Source: a virus
Strand: one strand, 5' to 3'
Virus record (IMG/VR): IMGVR_UViG_3300020468_000006
Location: 1 to 61,667 of that record
DNA length: 61,667 nt
Shown: in pieces, positions 15,701 through 41,989 of the stretch
Numbering within the stretch: the first letter of the stretch is position 1
Layout: every line of letters starts with the position of its first letter
Notes under the pieces: generated by a model
The model's input: only the letters and a program-made list of their open reading frames with translations
Database searches by the model: none
Told to the model about the DNA's origin: nothing
Position numbers and translations under genes: made by a program

Positions 15701-18700
15701 GAGACTATGCGGGTGATATTCATCTAGATGATGAGCAAAGAGTCTATATTTGTGGTTGGACTGATACTAACTCTCCAGATCCTAATGATATCTGGGTTAT
15801 GCAACTTAATAACCTAGGTGACGTTGTTGAGAAGCGTAAATTTGCTTCTGATGCTGAAGGGGAAGAAATGACCCAATTATATTTCATTGGTAACAATAAA
15901 CTTCTATTTACTGGTATTGATTCTGATAATCAAGATATTATCTTTGGTGAGATGTCATATGATGGTGCAAACATAGAATTAACATATACTAAGAGACTTG
16001 CTGTTTCTGGTGGTAATGTACAACGTCCTCGTTTTGTTCTTGATGAATGGGATGATTTGTTCTTTATCTGTGATATGTTTAATGGAACTAAGAACTATGG
16101 TATAGCATTCTTTAAGATACCTTTAGATCAACTTTCCACTAACCCATCTACTCCAACATACACATATTCTAAGATTATTGCTCCTAGTGGTACTTTCGAG
16201 TCAATCAACCATGCAGGAATTAACATGGATGTATTTGGCAACGTTAGTATCGTTGCTGACCTTAAGTATGCAGATAATGACCGTCAAGCGGTTGTTATGA
16301 ACTTTAAGTATGATGGAACTCTATTAAAGTCTACTAATATTGCAGATACCAATGATATTGGTATGATAACTAGAACTCACCAAGTTGATAACTCTGGTGA
16401 TGTCATATTAACAAGTAATAAGCAACTTCCTGTACAAACATATGTTGCTCGTTTCGAGAATGAAAATGATTTAGATGAGGATAGCACAAAGCAAGCACTT
16501 GTAACTACAACCTTCTCCACACCTGCTAACGCAGCACATAATACATCAGAATATAAGTTTGGTGCAGGATCAGTTAAGTTCTCTGGTGGTCCTACTAACA
16601 TGAAGGCAGCAGGTGCAGGTCTTACAGGTAAATGGACTACTGAAGTGTGGTCACTATTGACTGCATCTCATGCATCTAACAACCCTAAGGTTGAGATGTT
16701 CACTATTGACGATGCAACTGGTAATAGTCTTATCGTTACTGTTGATGGTAATGCATCTAGTGGTAACTTAGGTAAGATTGAGATGACCATTGCACCTCAG
16801 GGTGGTGGTGGATCTACAACTGCTTCTGTTGGTTCTACATACTGGACTACTCTACAAGATGCAGCATGGCATCATTGGGCAGTTGTTAAAGACGAACCTA
16901 CACTTGGTTCTTACTCATACTCTGTATACTTTGATGGTATACAAGTTTGTACTGCTACTGTAACTACTAATATTGGTCTTAATGATCTTTATGTTGGTGC
17001 TAATAAGACAACTCCTGCTACAGCAAACTGTTTCTTAGGTAGTATTGATGACCTAGTTATCGATCCAAACACTGTATATACTGGTGCATCATTCACTGTT
17101 GCTACAGAGAGATACAGAATTACTTCTAATGATTCTAAAGTTAACCTTATTAAGTTTGATAGACAGCATGATAAGAGAGGTGCATATACTGCATTCAGTG
17201 AAACAACACATACTAAGGCATTATCATTTACAGAAACTACTGCTATTAATGTCAATACTCTTTCTAATCCAGTCATTACTACATGGAATGTAGGTGCATC
17301 TGGTTTACAGATTCTTGATTACTCTGATGTTTCCTCTCAGTTAACACCAGGTACTTACTCATTTACTAGTGCAATTCATCAGTATGCATCTAAGACTTCT
17401 ACTATACCATCTCCACTTGGTAGAAAAGTCAAGGTTACTGCTGTTCCAATGGCGAAGTTCTACATTAGAGATGCAGGATATCAGAAGATTGACCTAGTTA
17501 AAGAATTTACATTTAACCAAGCAGTTAAGTTCACTAAGGGAACTTTAATACAGCAAAAGAATGAACAGGGTATTATTCAGGCATATGGTACTATCGTTGA
17601 GGTTCCAACTGGTACATTAGACAATCCTGGTCTTGGTAACAAGTATAAGGTTGGTAAGATCTATGGTAACTTTAATAATGATACAACTGATCTATATCAG
17701 AATGATACAGGTGAAGAGAATACAATTGATGGAGTAGTATTTGAGCAACCAAGATTGCAAGATCAGTGGGTAGCAAGTAAAGCATATACTACTGATACAC
17801 AGGTTTATAATGCAGGTAAGATATACAAAGCAACTAACACAGCTACATCTGGTTCTACACCACCTACACATAATATTGGTATTGTAACTGACGGTTCTGT
17901 AACGTGGCAGTATATTAGTGCTGCAGGTGCTATACAGGTTGACTTGTCTGAGCATCCATGGCCAACACCTACAGAGACACTTTGGACTGCTAACAGATCC
18001 TTCTCTGTCAATGATTTAGTTTACTTTGCTAGACAGAAGTACAAATGTACTGTTGCAGGTGTAACAAGTAGTGTTGCTCCTACTCATACTACTGGTACTG
18101 CAACTGATGGTACAGTAACATGGGAATGGCAATCTACATATGATCCATTATCAAGTTATGCTAGGTTCAGAACCTATGATCCTGGTGATTATGCAGTTAA
18201 GATTCTTGAGGTATATCCTGAGTCTGATTTCATTGTCGGTGATGTAATTTCGCTTGGTGGTAGTGTTACCGCAGGGCCAAACACAGATAACCCCAAAATC
18301 GCTGATATCAATGGAGTTACAACTGTTAAGAAACTAGAATTAACTGTTAGACTTGACAAAGATATTGTTAGAACTGCTGAAACAAGAACTGATCTTATAT
18401 ACTGCTCTGCACTCATTGCACATAGATTTACTGCAGGAGATATCCTATTTGTTACTGGATTCCAAGGAACTCAGTTTGATGGATCATTCTTCGTAGAGGA
18501 AATCTTCTCTTCTAGAGACTATACTTATAGGATGAGAGCAAATGCTGTTTCTGATCCTACATTTGATAACAATGCTATTGCTAATGTTAAGATATCTTCT
18601 AAGCACCCAACATTATTACTAGTAAGGAATCATTCATACATCTTTGACTTGAGTGATGCTTCTAACCAAGGATATTTCTTATCATTCTCTCAAGATAACC

Positions 18701-21700
18701 AGTTTAAACTAGAATACTCATTTAACGTTATTGAGAGATCTGGAACACCTGGTCAATCATCTACAACTGAAACTCCTACAGTTAAGTTTACAGTTGGTGG
18801 TGAAGTAACTAATATCACATACTACTTCGATCCTAGTAGAACACTTTCTACCAATTCTCCAGTTGGTGCTAACTCCTTTATTGATGTTATCAAGACACCT
18901 TATGATGGTACATTTACTATCTCAAATGTTATTAGTGATACTGAGTTCAGATTCCCATTAGATCAAGAACCAGAATTTAATAGTGCTGAGATTGGTGAGG
19001 ATGATCAAGATAGACCTAACTCTTTCTATTCTACAACGTCTACTAAAGCAATTGGTCCTATCAATACTATTAAGTTGATATCAGCAGGTGGATTCTACAA
19101 AAAATTACCGATCGTTTCTGACATTGCTTCTAATCGTAAGATCGAAAGAATTGTTATTGCTAACGGTGGTACTGAATATGCACCTGGCGTATATACACAG
19201 GTTCCTATTATAGGTGATGGTGAAGGTGGTCTATTAAACATTACAGTAGAAATAGATCAAGAAACTGATTCTGGTACTATTACCCAAGTTGCTCTTATTG
19301 ATCCAGGTTCAGGTTATACTACAGGTTCTGTTGATGTAGATGCTATACCAGGAATTTTAGGACAGACTCTATCTGGTTCTGGTGCAGAACTAACTGTTGT
19401 TATACCTGCTGAAGGTACAGGTGCTTCTGTATTCTTAACTGGTACACAGATTGGTAAGATCAAAACTCTTAAGAACAATGAATTTGGTTATGGTTACTCT
19501 CATGACTATACTCTACGTCCTGAGATTGCATTCCCAGTTAACTTACAACTCTTTAACACCTCAATACTTTCACAGATCAAGATAACTAATCCAGGTGCTG
19601 GCTATACATCTTCTCCTGTAGTTGTTATCTCTGGTGGTGGTGGAACTGGTGCTGATGCAGAAGCAATTGTTAAGAACAACAGGCTATCTGAAATTATTGT
19701 TAAAGATCCAGGTTCGGGATACAGTTCAGAACCAACTGTTCTTCTAAAATCAGAATTTACATACGTTGTTAACTTAGACCTTAACTACTTACAGTTTAAC
19801 TTCCCACACGGTATTACAACTGGTGCTGAGGTACAGTTTAGGGCAGAAGATATTGGTACTACAGTCGGTGAACTACCAAAACCAAGTTCAGTTGGTTTGA
19901 CATCACTATCTTCCACTCAGACATACTACGCTATTGCAGGTGATGCAAACTCTCTAGAATCTGATCAGTTACGTTTTGCTTTGACACCTGCTGATTCAGC
20001 GTCTGGTAACTTTATTACATTCCTAACACAAGGTGAAGGTAGACAGGTTCTTCTTACTCAAGTATTTGGTGGTACTGCTAGTGCTGTTGTTGAGACTTCT
20101 AGATTCTTAGCATCTGAGCAAGTATTCCAAGGTGAGTCTTTCGAATTAGCAAATGCTTTCGGTACAGTTTCTACTAACGATGGATGGCAGATAGGTCCTA
20201 AGATTCTTAAGGTTGTTAATCCTACAGGTGACTTCGTTGCAGGTGGTAAGGTTCAGGGTGTTATATCTCGTGCATCTGGTATTATTGATAACGTACAGAT
20301 CGCTAAAGGTATTCTAAACATTGATGCTCTTACTAGAACATCTGGTAGATTTATTGATGACGTTGGTAAACCATCAGAGATTGTACAGAAGATTCAGGAC
20401 TCTTACTTCTATCAGAACTTCTCATATGTTATTAAGTCACAAATTCCAATTAACCGTTGGAAGAAGCAGGTATTAGAGAATAACCACCCTGCAGGATTTA
20501 ATATGTTTGGTCAGTTAGAACTGACTGGTGGTAAGGACGTTTCTGGACGTAAGATTGGTACTGAGTTTACTAAACAGGTTAATATTAATGAGTATACAAA
20601 TGTCAACCAGATTACATCATTTGGTGCTGCACAACCAATCTATTCTACATTTAACAACTCTGAAGTTCTATTCAGAAAGAAAAGACTAACAAACTCTGAG
20701 GAAATCTTAACATCTATCGTTAAGAAGTTAGATAATATCTCAAGTCAGTTTGATGGTTCTACTAAGGCATTTAACCTTACTGTAGAAGGTGATCAGGTTA
20801 TTATTAAAGAGAATCAGATGTTGGTCACCTTAAACGGTGTTATCCAGTCACCTGGTACTGCATATCAAATTGTTGGTAATCAAATCGTATTTGCTGAACC
20901 ACCAAGACCAGATTCTAAGGTTGTTTATAGAAACGTAGATATACAGATATTACAGATTACTAAACTGAATCTAAACACTATTGGTGGTATATTCCCATCT
21001 ATCGGTGATTTTGTTTCTGGATTCACTTCTAATGCTAGTGCTAGAGTTGTTGCTACAGGTGCAACCAGTATTGACGTTATTGACATCACTGGTGGTCCTT
21101 TCCAAAACAATGAACGTATTGATGTAAATAGAACTGGATTTAGTGCATTGATCGGTAGTTTTGCACCTATCAACCAAGATACAATCTTTGAGTTTGCAGA
21201 AACAGTTACTAAGGTTTCATTAACAGCAGAGACTGCTAAAATCGAAGAAACTAACTTAGATCTTGATGGTAACATTGATTCTTCATTAGTTCTATCTAAG
21301 ACATCTGGTACTGCTGAATTTGAGACTGGTGTTTATAATATTCTCTTAAATGACTTTATATACTCTTCAGCATCAAATATTGCTGCTAAGATTGTTAGCA
21401 TATCTCCATATAGAGATCCTATCAGTTCTATTCAGTTAACAAGTGGTGCTGCCTTCTTAGAAGGTGATCAGGTTACTGGTGGTAATTCAGGTGCTGTGGC
21501 AGAGGTTGTACGAGTAGATGATGCTTTAAATCCTCCTGTATTGTACTTTGTTGCTAAATCAGTTGCATCATTCGTTAGTGGTGAAACAATTACTGCAGGT
21601 GCTATTAATGATATTGTTGTTGGAGATATCACAAGAGGTGACGTTGTTGACACTCTTATCATTAACAAAGGTTCATCATTCTTTGGATTAGTATTTGAGA

Positions 21701-35452: not shown

Positions 35453-37048
35453 ATGGCTGCTACATCGACATACAATTCAGGAACTAAAAACATCACAGTA
35501 GATGGAGATGGATTACCCAATCCAGTATTGTATGGAACGTTCCCTAATGCAAATAATCCTAGTTCTGTAACGGAGCAGGATTTTGAGCATACCTTTTATT
35601 ATAGAGGTGGTACATTTGGTGTTAGTAGAACATTTGATGATGCTAATTTTGCACAGACTGGATTTGTAATTACTATTAGTATATCTACTGCAGACAATGC
35701 TTTGTTAGGTTCTAGTATTCAGGTAGGAGATAGAGTATTATTCATATTAGATGCAGGAACAGCTAACGAGAAGAAGCAAGTATTTAAGTATACTGGTACA
35801 CAACAGACTGTTGCATCTGGTGAGTTTTGGAGAGCAACATCTAACACATTAGAATTAATTGTAGATTATACAAGATCAGCATATTCAGGAACCTATACTT
35901 ATTACGATCAAAGAAATGGAAGAGCAGCTACACCTTTAGGTGCTATTGGTATTGCTTCTAATGGCGTTGTATTTTTTAATCCTAGTGCAGGAGCAGGTGG
36001 TAACCCTCCTACAGGATTTAACTGGAATGCACACTTCCCTGACTCTCCTGTAAACTTTGGAGATGACTCATGTGGCGGGCATCCTGAACAGACAGGACAG
36101 TATCATTATCACGATACAGACTTTATATCATGTTGGAAAGCTAACTCTGTAATGGCATCATACAATGACTATTATGGATCAAGTCAGTATAACGGTGACA
36201 ACTTAAGACACCCAGACGGTCATTCCAAAATGCTAGGTTTAGCATTTGATGGTTTCCCTGTATATGGTCCTCATTGCTATAGTAATCCTTGGTTAAATTC
36301 ATCAGACCTAACTTTAGCAAGTACATCATATAGAGTGAAATCAGAAGAAGCTGTTGGTAGACCCACATATGGAACTAGTCAACAGAATCCTCCAGCTGGT
36401 TCATTAATTCAGGACTGGGAATATCAAGAGGGGCTAGGAATGCTAGACTATCATAATGGTAGATTCTGTGTAACACCTGAGTTCCCTGATGGTACCTATG
36501 CTTATTTCTTATCTACATCATATGACAGTGAAAATAATCTGGTTGCTGAGTTTCCATATTTACTAGGAATTACTAGTAGAGAGGCATTAAACCAACCAGC
36601 CAACAATGGTGCTGCTACACCACCTGCACCACCTTCAGGAGGAGGTGCTCCACCTCCAGCAACAATTTTGATTGGTGCTCAACCTCAGTCAGCTACTGTA
36701 GCTGCAAATGCTTCTGTCACCTTTACTACTACAGTGTCAATCAGCCCTCAAGATGGACCGAAGACATACCAGTGGTACAGGTCTACTGACGGTGGTTACT
36801 CCTTTGCTGTTCTTACTGGAGCTACAGCAAACTCTTTGACATTCACAGCACTTGCATACATGTCTGGATATAAATTCAGATGCGTGATTGCAGGTCCTGT
36901 AGGTGGTACTGCTGCTACCAACTCTCCTCTAACAACTGACGTTGCGACTCTCACTGTGACAGGTGGTGGCGGTGGTCAGACAGCTGAGGACTTCTCAAGT
37001 ACCAACGTTTCGTTGGATACTACTGGCATATCCTTCGATGCCACATAA
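35453..37048 (+). CDS. YHYH domain plus Ig-like virion protein, 531 aa
   Basis: The name-giving YHYH is at residues 217-220 (QYHYHDT). It is followed by LGLAFDGFPVYGP at about 262-274 and FCVTPEFPDGTYAYF further on, which defines a full YHYH domain (PF14240-type). A Pro/Ala/Gly linker (PPAPPSGGGAPPP) leads to an Ig-like domain from about 404 (QPQSATVAANASVTF, YQWYRS, YKFRCVIAG). The C-terminal 25 residues are Ser/Thr-rich. YHYH domains have unknown function and occur in phage and marine bacterial surface proteins; Ig-like domains in phages commonly help attach to cells or mucus. The gene begins eight bases after the giant gene, whose own C-terminus is also Ig-like. A structural role is inferred from context. 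Confidence 0.75.
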   Translation: MAATSTYNSGTKNITVDGDGLPNPVLYGTFPNANNPSSVTEQDFEHTFYYRGGTFGVSRTFDDANFAQTGFVITISISTADNALLGSSIQVGDRVLFILDAGTANEKKQVFKYTGTQQTVASGEFWRATSNTLELIVDYTRSAYSGTYTYYDQRNGRAATPLGAIGIASNGVVFFNPSAGAGGNPPTGFNWNAHFPDSPVNFGDDSCGGHPEQTGQYHYHDTDFISCWKANSVMASYNDYYGSSQYNGDNLRHPDGHSKMLGLAFDGFPVYGPHCYSNPWLNSSDLTLASTSYRVKSEEAVGRPTYGTSQQNPPAGSLIQDWEYQEGLGMLDYHNGRFCVTPEFPDGTYAYFLSTSYDSENNLVAEFPYLLGITSREALNQPANNGAATPPAPPSGGGAPPPATILIGAQPQSATVAANASVTFTTTVSISPQDGPKTYQWYRSTDGGYSFAVLTGATANSLTFTALAYMSGYKFRCVIAGPVGGTAATNSPLTTDVATLTVTGGGGGQTAEDFSSTNVSLDTTGISFDAT

Positions 37049-37073: not shown

Positions 37074-38573
37074 ATGGCTAAACAATCAGTTGGTATTGGA
37101 TCTTCGGCAAATGATGGCACAGGTGATACCCTGCGTGATGGTGCGATTAAAGTAAATTCCAACTTTGACGAATTATATACAGCCTTAGGTAACGATACAT
37201 CAATCCAAGTTGATATCAGTGGGTCTCCTGCTGATGGACAAGTATTAAAGTGGTCTTCCAGCCCTAGTGGAGCATTTCGTGCGAGTGATTATAACTTGCT
37301 AAGCTCTGATCTTGATACAAATGGCAATCAGATAGTCTCTGACGGGACAGATGCTATTACAATCAAACAAACTGGAACAGGTAATATCAATTTATGGGCT
37401 GGTGGATCTGGATCTGCATACAGTTATGTTGATGGTAGTGATGGATATTTTAAATGGTATGCACCATATGCAACAGAGGGAGACCTTCCCAATGCAACAA
37501 ACCATCATGGTATGTTTGCACATGCACATGCTACTGGTAAAGGATATTTTGCACACAGTGCTGCTTGGGTTCCTCTCATCTCAGAGAACAGCAGTGTTAG
37601 TTTATTGAGTGATGTTGATACAACTATAAACGGTGGTCCTAGTGATGGTCAGGTTCTTAAGTGGGTAGCATCAACATCTAAATGGTCACCTGCTAACGAT
37701 GAGCAAGGAACTGGTGGTAGTGGTGGAACTACACAAAACTTATTTGAGACAGTTAATGGAGATACAGGCACAACAACTGCATCTGCTGCTAACGACACAT
37801 TAATAATCGCAGGTGGAACCAATATCACTACGTCTATTACAGGCGATACACTGACTATTGACATGACAGGTGCATTAGGTGCCCCTGATCAGAACCTATT
37901 CTCAACAATTAATGCTGACAATGGTGGTACTAGTGCTACTGTAACTACAGACTCTATTACATTTGCAGGTGGTACAGGAGTTTCGACCAACCTGAATGCA
38001 GGTACTATCACCATAACAAACACATCACCTAACGTAACACAGAGTTTATTTTCTACTGTTGCTGGTGACACGGGTTCTCAGGCTGCAGGAAGTGCAACTA
38101 CCACACTAACAATAGCTGGTGGTACTGGTGCTACTACTGCACAGTCTGGTGATACACTGACAGTTAACGTTGATAATCCTCTCCCAGGTGGTTCAGGAGG
38201 ACAGAATTTATTTTATGATGGAGCAGCTAGTGCATGGGCAACTAGTGCATCTCCTACAATATGGTATTCAGTAGGTTCTAACGGTGCAAGTTCATATAGG
38301 TTTACAGGACCAGGTTTATCATCTGCAACTGATAATCCTACAATCTATGTCTATAGAGGGTTTACATATAGATTCTACAATACGACTGGATCAAGTCACC
38401 CATTTGAGATAAGAGTTTCATCCCAAGGAGCTGCGGTTACTAGTGGTATTAGTGGTTCTATAACAGGCACATTAATATACACAGTTCCAATGACTGTTGC
38501 TGCAGGAACGACATACAAGTATCAGTGTACTATCCATGAGACTAACATGGTTGGCGACATAGTGGTGGTGTAA
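37074..38573 (+). CDS. Fibre-like structural protein with C-terminal cupredoxin-like domain, 499 aa
   Basis: The N-terminus (VGIGSSANDGTGDTLRDGAI, NSNFDELYTALG) is the standard anchoring motif of phage tail fibres. The middle is a chain of Gly/Thr/Ser-rich beta repeats: paired DGQVLKW units near 58 and 192, then four or so units around LFSTINAD, LFSTVAGDTG and LTIAGGTG. Residues about 415-499 look like a cupredoxin: a strand TIYVYRGFTYRF, His442 in SSHPF, and the C-terminal loop with Cys485, His488 and Met492 followed by VGDIVVV. These are all four ligands of a type-1 copper site. Neighbours are structural, so this is probably a baseplate fibre with a metal-binding tip. Copper binding is inference; no redox role is known. 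Confidence 0.75.
   Translation: MAKQSVGIGSSANDGTGDTLRDGAIKVNSNFDELYTALGNDTSIQVDISGSPADGQVLKWSSSPSGAFRASDYNLLSSDLDTNGNQIVSDGTDAITIKQTGTGNINLWAGGSGSAYSYVDGSDGYFKWYAPYATEGDLPNATNHHGMFAHAHATGKGYFAHSAAWVPLISENSSVSLLSDVDTTINGGPSDGQVLKWVASTSKWSPANDEQGTGGSGGTTQNLFETVNGDTGTTTASAANDTLIIAGGTNITTSITGDTLTIDMTGALGAPDQNLFSTINADNGGTSATVTTDSITFAGGTGVSTNLNAGTITITNTSPNVTQSLFSTVAGDTGSQAAGSATTTLTIAGGTGATTAQSGDTLTVNVDNPLPGGSGGQNLFYDGAASAWATSASPTIWYSVGSNGASSYRFTGPGLSSATDNPTIYVYRGFTYRFYNTTGSSHPFEIRVSSQGAAVTSGISGSITGTLIYTVPMTVAAGTTYKYQCTIHETNMVGDIVVV
38319..38570 (+). other. Cupredoxin-like domain with type-1 copper ligand set
   Basis: His442 (38397-38399), Cys485 (38526-38528), His488 and Met492 are arranged as H...C-x2-H-x3-M. 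Plastocyanin has C-x2-H-x4-M and amicyanin C-x2-H-x2-M, so the ligand loop is intermediate in length. The strands before His442 and after Met492 fit the fold. Confidence 0.65.
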
Positions 38574-38574
38574 T

Positions 38575-40419
38575 ATGACAAGAACAGTACCAGGTAGCGG
38601 TGCAGCAATAGAACCAGTCTTTAACTCTGTATACGGAGTGAGGGATGTTATTGTGACCAATCCTGGTTCTGGTTACAGTCAAACTGATCCCCCAAAACTT
38701 AGTGTTGGTAACTGTGGTACTCCTATTAGAGATGCAGTTCTTCGTGCAAACATTGGTGTTAACGGTGATCTTCTATCTGTGGATGTTGTAGATCCTGGTG
38801 AAGGATATGATCCATTAAGATTAGAGATAACAAGTGACGATGCGGGCGTTGTTCAGGCAGATGCAAATATTGTATTAACGACTGATGGTGTTGGTGGTAT
38901 AGGTAACTTACAAGTCACGCAGCCTGGTGATGGATATTATAGTGCTGAAGCTGAGATAAAAGGTGGTGGTGGATCTGGTGCAGAACTAGTTCCCATCACT
39001 GGTGGTGTAACTGGTCTTGCTATCGAAGGTAAAGGTAGGAACTACAATCTCAACGATATCACTCTTGTTATATCAGGTGGTGGTGGAGACGGAGCAACAG
39101 GTGTTGCTGAGGTTAATCAGTTCGGCTCAGTTACCTCAATTAGTATCAGTAACCCAGGTGAGTTTTTTGAGACTCCTCCAATTATACAGCTAATTGGTGG
39201 TGGTGGATCTGGTGCTACTGCTGAAGCACAGATCAATCTTGGAAGGATAACAAGTATTGATATACTAAATCCAGGTGGTAGTTACGTTACAGCACCGTCA
39301 GTTATATTCACTAGAGACACTAACTTAATTAGAACTCAAAGGAATAGAACTTCGTTAGAGAGTACATTATATAATGTAACTGCACTATTAAGAAATGCTG
39401 CAGCAGCAGATACTGTTCTATATGTTCAGACTACTGATGCATTTGCAGGTTCTGGTAAGTTCCAAATAGGAACTGAGATCGTAAGATACACTGGTAAGAC
39501 TACTACTAGTTTTACTGGATGTACTAGAGGACTGAACTTTAGATATGATCAGAGGGTTGTATTAGATGCTTTAGCAGATTCTGGTGGACAGTCTGGATAT
39601 AACTTTACTGTTTCAGATAGAATCAGAAGAGTTACAGAAGACAAGACCAATAAAGTTGCTGTTGTATATGACTGGAATAAGGTAACTAAAGAGTTATTCT
39701 TAATATTCGAAGTTGATGAATTAGCGTTTATCGATGGTGGTCGTTCTAACGAATCGACTGCTGTGATTCAGTTTATTGGAGGTGTTGCTAGTTCTTCTGG
39801 TACAGGTGAATCTCCACATGTACTTCTTGAGTCAATAGGAAAGAATATTCCAATCTTCACTGATCCTGTCGGTGTATTGGAAAATTTTGAGTTCGAAGAC
39901 AACGATGAATTGGATGGAGCTGGTGATGGTATCCCTGACCTGGTAAATACTGGTACAGAGTTTGAGAATGAAATAAGTCTAGATGGTGGTATTGCATCAT
40001 CTCTTTATGGTATTGAGGAAACTGTTGGTGGTCAAAACACCACACTATTCCAACAAGGGGATCAGTTATATGATTCTAGTTTAGTGCCATTAGTGTCTAC
40101 TGTATCTACTGCAGGTGCTCTTGGTGATGGTGTTGCACATAGTGCGACCTCTTTCATTATTGCTAAATCATGGAATAGCGTTAATTATCAAGTAGATGAA
40201 ATCCTAACTGGTAACTCTACTGGTGTAACTGCTAAAGTAGTTTCATTTAATAATGCATATGCTACTGGATATGTACAGTTAGAAGTAAAAGATCTAACAA
40301 ATAATGGTAATACTTACCAATTTACGACCAGTGATACCCTAACAGGTGGTACATCTGGTGCGACGGTTGTATTCTTTAAAACGGAGTATACTAACCTCGT
40401 TAGAAACGAACCTGAATAA
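38575..40419 (+). CDS. Glycine-rich virion structural protein, 614 aa
   Basis: The ATG comes one base after the previous stop. Residues 1-250 are GxGY-type repeats like those in the giant protein: NPGSGYSQTDPPKL, DPGEGYDPLRLEI, QPGDGYYSAEAEI, NPGEFFETPPII and NPGGSYVTAPSVIF. They alternate with GGGGSGAxAxA strands. Residues about 275-350 hold an E-x-V-x-Y-T...CTRG element (FQIGTEIVRYTG, TGCTRGLN) shared with the giant protein and gp15. The C-terminal third has two GxxTSGATxxV motifs (ILTGNSTGVTAKVVSF, TLTGGTSGATVVFF). No enzymatic motif is seen. It is likely a baseplate or short-fibre protein located between the cupredoxin fibre and gp8; the exact role is unknown. Confidence 0.65.
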   Translation: MTRTVPGSGAAIEPVFNSVYGVRDVIVTNPGSGYSQTDPPKLSVGNCGTPIRDAVLRANIGVNGDLLSVDVVDPGEGYDPLRLEITSDDAGVVQADANIVLTTDGVGGIGNLQVTQPGDGYYSAEAEIKGGGGSGAELVPITGGVTGLAIEGKGRNYNLNDITLVISGGGGDGATGVAEVNQFGSVTSISISNPGEFFETPPIIQLIGGGGSGATAEAQINLGRITSIDILNPGGSYVTAPSVIFTRDTNLIRTQRNRTSLESTLYNVTALLRNAAAADTVLYVQTTDAFAGSGKFQIGTEIVRYTGKTTTSFTGCTRGLNFRYDQRVVLDALADSGGQSGYNFTVSDRIRRVTEDKTNKVAVVYDWNKVTKELFLIFEVDELAFIDGGRSNESTAVIQFIGGVASSSGTGESPHVLLESIGKNIPIFTDPVGVLENFEFEDNDELDGAGDGIPDLVNTGTEFENEISLDGGIASSLYGIEETVGGQNTTLFQQGDQLYDSSLVPLVSTVSTAGALGDGVAHSATSFIIAKSWNSVNYQVDEILTGNSTGVTAKVVSFNNAYATGYVQLEVKDLTNNGNTYQFTTSDTLTGGTSGATVVFFKTEYTNLVRNEPE

Positions 40420-40424
40420 GTCAC

Positions 40425-40431
40425 ATAAATA
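40425..40431 (+). promoter_or_regulatory. Late promoter ATAAATA before gp8
   Basis: The motif lies in the 34-base gap between the glycine-rich gene and gp8, in the context CACATAAATAAAAGGAAGG. Six bases separate it from the upstream stop. The downstream GGAAGG may be part of the ribosome binding region, 13 bases from the ATG. Confidence 0.6.
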
Positions 40432-40453
40432 AAAGGAAGGTAACCACTGCGTC

Positions 40454-41989
40454 ATGGCACTACTCACCGATCAATTTAGAATTTTTACTGCCGAGAGATT
40501 CATTAAAGCTCTTGAGGGAGCAGATGCGTCGCAGTCAGACCTTGAGGCGGGTACGTCTAGAGATAGGTTGTACGTATTCATTGGCAGACCACAAGAATGG
40601 GATAACGAAAACGCACCTCCTACACCTGTTGACTCTTTCCAAGAGTTCTCAGATACATTTGCAGACATGATTTCACTGAAACGTGTTCTTGCGAATGACA
40701 CTATACAGGTTGTTAGAAGAATCGACTGGACACCCCCAGAGCAAACAACTGGTGGATTAGGTTATGTTTATGATATGTATAGACATGATTATAGTTCTAC
40801 AAAGACTGCTTCATCTGGTGCAACCAAGTTGTACGATGCAGACTTTTATGTTGTAAACTCACAATATCAAACTTATAAATGTATCTACAATGGCACGTCT
40901 CCTTCGGACCCCAATGGTAAACCGTCTACGGTTGAGCCAACTGGCACGTCAACAAGTATTATCACTACCTCCGATGGTTATCGTTGGAAGTATCTTTATA
41001 CTATACCTGTTGGTCAGGTCTTAAAATTCTTCTCTAACGACTATATGCCTGTTCTTAGCGATGTCGCTGTTACAGGTGATGCTGTTGGTGGAGAGATTGA
41101 TACAGTTGTTATCCAAGCATCAGGTACTGGATACAACAACGGAACCTATGAAAACGTCCCTATTAAAGGTGACGGAGTTGGTGGAAGAGTATCACTGGTT
41201 GTAGATGGTGGACGTATAGTTAACGCTACTGTGACATCTGGTGGATCTGGATACAACTTTGGTAAGATCGTTATTGATGAGGTCAACGGTATTGGTGCAG
41301 GAACTGGTACTGGTGCTGCTATTGACGTTATCATTCCCCCTGAGACAGGACATGGTGCTGAACCAGACTCTGAGTTAGGTGGATACCGTGTGATGATCAA
41401 CACCAAGTTTACCTACGCTGAAGGTTCAGGTGACTTCCCAACTGATAACGATTATCGTCGTATTGGTTTGGTGATCAATCCTAAGCAGTATGGAACTACA
41501 GCTCTTACATCTGCTATTACATTATCTGCGACTCAAGCGGTGATATTCTCACCAACCTTTACAGGTCAGTTCCAAACTGATGAGATCGTAACCCAATCTC
41601 GTACCGTTGGTGGTCAACAGGTGACTGCTAGAGGTAGAGTTATATCATGGAATGATACCACTAAAGTCCTGAAGTTCTATCAAAATAGAATCGATGGTGT
41701 GTTCCCAGAAATTACTGGTAACTTAACTGACTTCGAAGGTGGTAACCCTGTGGTAGGTGCTACATCAGGTACATCTGCTGACCCAGACATCAACTTCCCA
41801 ATAGTCTCTGGTTCATCCACTCGTATTATTAACAATACAGAATATGACTTGGGTATGTCATTTACTAATGGTTATGCAAAACCTGAGATCGAGCCAAATA
41901 GCGGTGAGATTATTTACATAGATAACAGAGGTGCTATCTCCAGAGCAGGAGACCAAATCGAAGATATCAAGATCGTAGTCGAGTTCTAA
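40454..41989 (+). CDS. gp8: Baseplate wedge subunit gp8
   Basis: The 511-residue protein starts MALLTDQFRIFTAERFI and contains the gp8 core: RLYVFIGRPQEWDNENAPP, DTFADMISLKRV and DGYRWKYLYTIPVGQ with FSNDYMPV. T4 gp8 is 334 residues; the extra length here comes mainly from an insertion at about 200-290 with two GxGY motifs (IQASGTGYNNGTYENVPI, TSGGSGYNFGKIVI). In T4, gp8 dimers bind gp10/gp7 at the wedge periphery and help the dome-to-star change. It is preceded by an ATAAATA late promoter and followed four bases later by the DUF4815 gene. Confidence 0.88.
   Translation: MALLTDQFRIFTAERFIKALEGADASQSDLEAGTSRDRLYVFIGRPQEWDNENAPPTPVDSFQEFSDTFADMISLKRVLANDTIQVVRRIDWTPPEQTTGGLGYVYDMYRHDYSSTKTASSGATKLYDADFYVVNSQYQTYKCIYNGTSPSDPNGKPSTVEPTGTSTSIITTSDGYRWKYLYTIPVGQVLKFFSNDYMPVLSDVAVTGDAVGGEIDTVVIQASGTGYNNGTYENVPIKGDGVGGRVSLVVDGGRIVNATVTSGGSGYNFGKIVIDEVNGIGAGTGTGAAIDVIIPPETGHGAEPDSELGGYRVMINTKFTYAEGSGDFPTDNDYRRIGLVINPKQYGTTALTSAITLSATQAVIFSPTFTGQFQTDEIVTQSRTVGGQQVTARGRVISWNDTTKVLKFYQNRIDGVFPEITGNLTDFEGGNPVVGATSGTSADPDINFPIVSGSSTRIINNTEYDLGMSFTNGYAKPEIEPNSGEIIYIDNRGAISRAGDQIEDIKIVVEF

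Follow-up and report, generated by a model that had tools for sequence, protein, structure and literature searches.

The T4 baseplate contains six trimers of gp9, and marine T4-like cyanophages are among the most abundant and best-studied viruses in the ocean. Cupredoxins are themselves already known, as are the public records of the gp9 family, and the length of the cupredoxin ligand loop is known to vary between azurin, plastocyanin and amicyanin. A literature search, exclusive of preprints and most subscription journals, returned no report of a complete type-1 site in such a virion protein. Among the papers considered on cupredoxin and bacteriophage, judged by title and abstract, none concerned virion proteins, and the sole match for cupredoxin with cyanophage, outside preprints and subscription papers, was a Borg paper. 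A complete type-1 site in a virion connector therefore seems unreported. The feature has been hidden by annotation, since the records say only 'baseplate wedge tail fiber connector' or 'hypothetical protein'.

The connector and its C-terminal domain

The window analysed here is a virus record of 61,667 bases, whose structural genes are nearest to those of Cyanophage P-RSM6 (79.5% identical DNA across 3.5 kb surrounding the cupredoxin gene). A gp9/gp10-like baseplate wedge-tail fibre connector of 499 amino acids was encoded at 37074..38573 (+ strand). It matched PF07880 (E 4.9e-11, above the cut-off) and, over its whole length, phrog_677 (E 5.6e-149; labelled 'baseplate wedge tail fiber protein connector'), and the N-terminal PF07880 domain together with phrog_677 identified the protein as T4 gp9/gp10-like. 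Between the window and P-RSM6, divergence across 37074-41989 (+) was mosaic: the gp8 proteins were 99.6% identical, gp9 was ~70-89% identical, and the gene between them was 86% identical.

Along the connector, an N-terminal T4 gp9/gp10-type wedge-attachment domain leads into a middle region, which is followed by three repeats and a C-terminal cupredoxin domain. The wedge-attachment domain (residues 3-79; 37080..37310, +) was recognised by PF07880 and by phmmer, which matched the first ~40-60 residues to T4 gp10 (6e-7) and T4 gp9 (7e-5). The three beta-rich repeats of ~50 residues (residues 222-377; 37737..38204, +; starting at 222, 274 and 324) probably form a trimeric fibre-like shaft; they appeared as regular beta-hairpins in a monomer model of low confidence, the full-length model being of low confidence everywhere outside the cupredoxin domain (pLDDT 65, pTM 0.29). 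No hydrophobic N-terminal signal was apparent in the connector sequence. Family membership and gene order suggest that the connector would lie in the baseplate and bind the tail fibres. The original prediction had placed the feature at the tip of a phage fibre, beginning at position 38319; it is the C-terminal end of a gp9/gp10-like baseplate wedge-fibre protein, a place that need not be a fibre tip, and its first strands begin earlier, near residue 390 (nucleotide ~38241).

The cupredoxin domain comprised residues ~390-499 (~110 amino acids; 38241..38570, +). Modelled with AlphaFold2 from a 54-sequence alignment, it gave nine strands at pLDDT 93.9 and pTM 0.85. Among the Foldseek matches listed for this model in the PDB with E ≤ 0.001, all were cupredoxin-fold copper proteins: nitrite reductase cupredoxin domains, rusticyanin, plastocyanin, amicyanin, pseudoazurin, and multicopper oxidases. 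E-values of the listed matches reached 1.3e-5 and TM-scores were 0.5-0.6; because these scores are moderate, the domain is described as a divergent cupredoxin. A family profile built from 29 relatives and compared with solved structures scored amicyanin (1e-6) and plastocyanin (9e-6) best, followed by rusticyanin (1e-3), and the alignment to amicyanin and plastocyanin ran through the C-x-x-H-x-x-M region. Cupredoxins were reached only by the family profile; when the connector domain was the sole query sequence, the PDB returned no match. Against PF00127 (plastocyanin/azurin) the connector scored 18.0 bits (E 0.004), below the curated cut-off of 21.2, and 9 of the 29 relatives matched this model at E ≤ 0.01. 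The domain also scored under the curated cut-off of the NCBIfam halocyanin model.

Among the features of the cupredoxin superfamily are an eight-stranded Greek-key beta-barrel and an ordered type-1 set His...Cys-His-Met. The first was found in the confident AlphaFold2 model and its listed PDB matches, and the second as invariant columns in two alignments. A cupredoxin-like domain in a tail protein had been proposed, with structure prediction as the check and the Greek-key barrel as the point at issue, and the predicted fold, the Foldseek matches and the family profile all agreed with that proposal. The assignment of residues ~390-499 to a cupredoxin domain thus holds at the level of predicted structure.

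Predicted copper ligands and their conservation

The predicted copper ligands were His442 in the HPF motif (38397..38399), the thiolate Cys485 (38526..38528), His488 (38535..38537), and the axial Met492 (38547..38549), all on the + strand. The reading frame, these four residues and their motifs (SSHPF at 440, QCTIH at 484, NMVG at 491) occurred where they had been predicted. Cys485 was the sole cysteine of the 499-residue connector.

All four ligands were conserved in two alignments, in agreement with the complete type-1 set first suggested. Ten residues were invariant among 29 sequences that were 31-94% identical to the query (P, G, F, H, P, G, Y, C, H, M), the four ligands among them; nine columns were invariant among 54 sequences, again with all four ligand columns included. 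In a wider alignment of 103 sequences that included a second subfamily, the ligand columns ranked 3, 4, 5 and 12 of 109 in conservation. The Cys and the second His were invariant in 103 of 103 rows, the Met was present in 97, and the first His departed in three. Every departure, of the three His and six Met, fell in the second subfamily, and the first His was misaligned in three of that subfamily's six rows. In this second subfamily of phage cupredoxin-like domains (rows L046, L047, L093, L098, L102 and L106) the axial Met was replaced by Gln or Lys, as in CHHHTGQ. Stellacyanin has an axial Gln, of which this position is reminiscent.

The C-H-M loop was present in 77 of 77 distinct full-length gp9-type relatives, and in 73 of them the ligand Cys was the only cysteine. 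Loop spacing was x2/x2 in 71 relatives, x2/x3 in five (the window's group: the connector and four others), and x4/x2 in one. The spacing differs between relatives, yet the ligands are kept. As originally noted, the C-x2-H-x3-M loop of the connector is intermediate between the C-x2-H-x2-M of amicyanin and the C-x2-H-x4-M of plastocyanin, the latter seen in phage petE proteins. With x3, the connector departs from the amicyanin pattern, and the x2 loop of the 71 relatives is not enough to name any of them amicyanin.

The pattern H-x(30-60)-C-x2-H-x(2-4)-M occurred once in the 22,568 amino acids of window open reading frames of at least 100 residues, and arose in one of 200 shuffles of the connector protein. 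A chance motif was ruled out by these shuffles together with the ligand conservation. Compared with its P-RSM6 counterpart, the cupredoxin domain had a dN of 0.22 and a dS of 1.18, indicating purifying selection.

Distribution and origin of the domain

The domain is no peculiarity of this virus; tblastn and profile scans showed it to be common in cyanophages. A first tblastn query with the domain found 324 phage records at E ≤ 1e-3, rising to 355 when the threshold was relaxed to E ≤ 10, and the positive records were all from marine Synechococcus or Prochlorococcus phages or labelled 'marine virus'. A second query found 358 records and added a few Pelagibacter and other phages. Altogether, the domain is carried by ~324-358 phage records, nearly all cyanophages, and its usual place is the gp9 C-terminus. 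For scale, the neighbouring gp8 was found in 513 records, which included Stenotrophomonas and Sinorhizobium phages; the search of phage records did not find the cupredoxin domain in these gp8-bearing Stenotrophomonas and Sinorhizobium phages. At least 543 viral metagenome contigs also contained the domain (543 of 600 candidates confirmed).

The profile search of other tail proteins that had been suggested as a check did find the domain there. In 12 cyanophage records chosen as known or suspected carriers, all 12 had at least one copy, and copies outside gp9 lay in proximal tail fibres, S8-peptidase-like proteins and giant gp7-like proteins; the podovirus P-SCSP2 was positive. Most copies in these other structural proteins retained H...C-x2-H-x2-M. 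Proteins of ACG-2014j and S-H9-1 (L032, L035) had a C-terminal cupredoxin with complete ligands, the S-H9-1 copy being annotated as a subtilisin-like serine protease. In P-SSM2 and S-SCSM1 the domain was near the N-terminus of the proximal tail fibre. The gp9-type protein of S-SCSM1 was short (264 amino acids) and had no cupredoxin, its proximal fibre bearing the domain instead, and this swap, a single case, fits a role at the joint between connector and fibre. Placement at the gp9 C-terminus or the proximal-fibre N-terminus is likewise consistent with such a joint.

A link to host plastocyanin, hinted at originally, did not survive comparison with petE, which was present as a separate gene in 6 of 10 domain-bearing phages tested. 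Its product was small, with a signal peptide and a C-x2-H-x4-M loop. A tree built from 54 sequences split petE from the gp9-type domains at 100/100 support; given this split and the separate petE genes, the domain is no recent capture of host plastocyanin, and that origin was ruled out. The connector domain grouped apart from petE, had a different loop, and had no apparent export signal. The nearest cellular sequences were proteins of Bacteroidota and Poseidoniales, whose 20 rows formed their own group in the tree (support 94/75). Several of the nearest apparently cellular hits lay on contigs filed under Flavobacteriales (TMED113), Nonlabens, Euryarchaeota and Rhodopirellula (L118-L122, L124); these contigs encoded complete gp9-type proteins of the cyanophage kind, and for this reason are probably phage DNA in those assemblies.

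Candidate roles of the site and comparison with known systems

The reading we favour, with somewhat better than even confidence, is that the connector cupredoxin binds one copper through the predicted ligands His442, Cys485, His488 and axial Met492, and serves as a metal-stabilised docking or adhesion module. The C-terminal ~110 residues would hold a single ion much as amicyanin or plastocyanin does, copper being the most likely metal to fill the site. Once bound, the metal would stiffen or lock the ligand loops at one barrel end; the rigid domain would dock or adhere where the connector meets the tail fibre or the cell surface. Such a module would require no redox chemistry. Because the connector appears to have no export signal, a reasonable guess is that copper loading would occur perhaps only at lysis, from the lysate, or afterwards from seawater. 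If the connector forms trimers, and in the same number as in T4, a virion would have ~18 sites.

Support for a copper-stabilised module comes from the homology, the predicted fold, the strict conservation of four ligands, the exclusion of other cysteines, and the position at the connector end shown here. Several points weigh against it. With no apparent signal peptide, the connector would reach its folded state inside the cytoplasm, a compartment with very little free copper. The site might instead take zinc. A sister domain without ligands in the same window shows the fold to be useful without metal. The TM-scores are modest (0.5-0.6), and exposure and fibre binding are inferred.

That sister domain bears on the next reading, in which the domain would be an apo scaffold, a plain Ig-like beta-sandwich for binding whose conserved residues are structural and whose site is metal-free in the virion. 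The window encodes a giant virion structural protein of 8580 amino acids with many repeats, in a single uninterrupted open reading frame (9703-35445, +). Within it, a cupredoxin-like domain at 18547..18828 (+) was found with the second-subfamily HMM (E 1.7e-22), its first His and Cys-His-Met loop lost; the fold can therefore persist without copper, and other beta-sandwich modules of phage tails are metal-independent. Yet precisely the four copper ligands stay invariant even as identity in the connector domain falls to 31%, and 73 of 77 proteins permit no cysteine other than the ligand Cys. The sister domain also cuts the other way, as the ligands can evidently be lost when no metal is needed, and gp9 keeps its site. 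An apo scaffold is judged unlikely. An electron-transfer fold has apparently been put to new use as a virion module, and copies that keep the ligands occur alongside copies that have lost them.

A site that holds metal could also be occupied differently: in the virion it might carry zinc or some other soft metal, or it might bind copper for protection or nutrition of the virus. Soft-ligand sites of this kind also accept zinc. Directly upstream of gp9 lies a virion protein with a YHYH domain (PF14240, 5.4e-33; 35453-37048, +), so that two predicted metal-binding domains adjoin; a zinc site and hydrolase activity have been predicted for the YHYH protein (PMC7824862), and metal-binding tail fibres have been proposed for marine phages (PMC11705849). 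A Cys-His-His-Met set is, however, a copper signature unlike structural zinc sites, and such alternative metal use is considered distinctly improbable. We give similarly little credence to the broader proposal that cyanophage virions are copper particles, with redox-competent blue copper on each connector and on other structural proteins, used in adsorption or injection at photosynthetic cells. A redox-active blue copper site in the connector, exchanging electrons with partners at the host surface or in the periplasm or acting as a redox switch in adsorption, is very improbable: the H-C-H-M set is complete, as in electron-transfer cupredoxins, and gp9 keeps its axial Met although the second subfamily has Gln or Lys, but no partner, genetic link or neighbouring redox gene was found, the tree shows that the domain is not plastocyanin-derived, and its copies occur in many structural contexts.

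If a conserved type-1 copper site in the baseplate connector is real, it would make the virion a metalloparticle. Marine virus biogeochemistry would then gain a copper pool, and phage attachment a sharp experimental handle through colour, spectroscopy and copper chelation.

Compared with described systems, the connector resembles T4 gp9/gp10 in its N-terminal PF07880 domain and in adjoining gp8 and other wedge genes; similarity stops after the first 40-60 residues, however, beyond which the connector adds a beta-repeat shaft and a cupredoxin. The petE product of cyanophages is also a cupredoxin, and its gene accompanies the connector domain in 6 of 10 phage genomes tested. The Bacteroidota and Poseidoniales domains share 33-41% identity and the HPF/HPL and C-x2-H-x2-M motifs with the connector domain; these proteins are cellular, however, and several have signal-peptide- or lipoprotein-like N-termini and collagen-like repeats. 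With amicyanin, plastocyanin and rusticyanin the connector domain has in common the predicted fold, the ligand order H...C-x2-H-xn-M and profile similarity, but it differs in being the C-terminal part of a virion protein with no apparent signal peptide, in having its first His in an HPF motif, and in its H-x3-M spacing.
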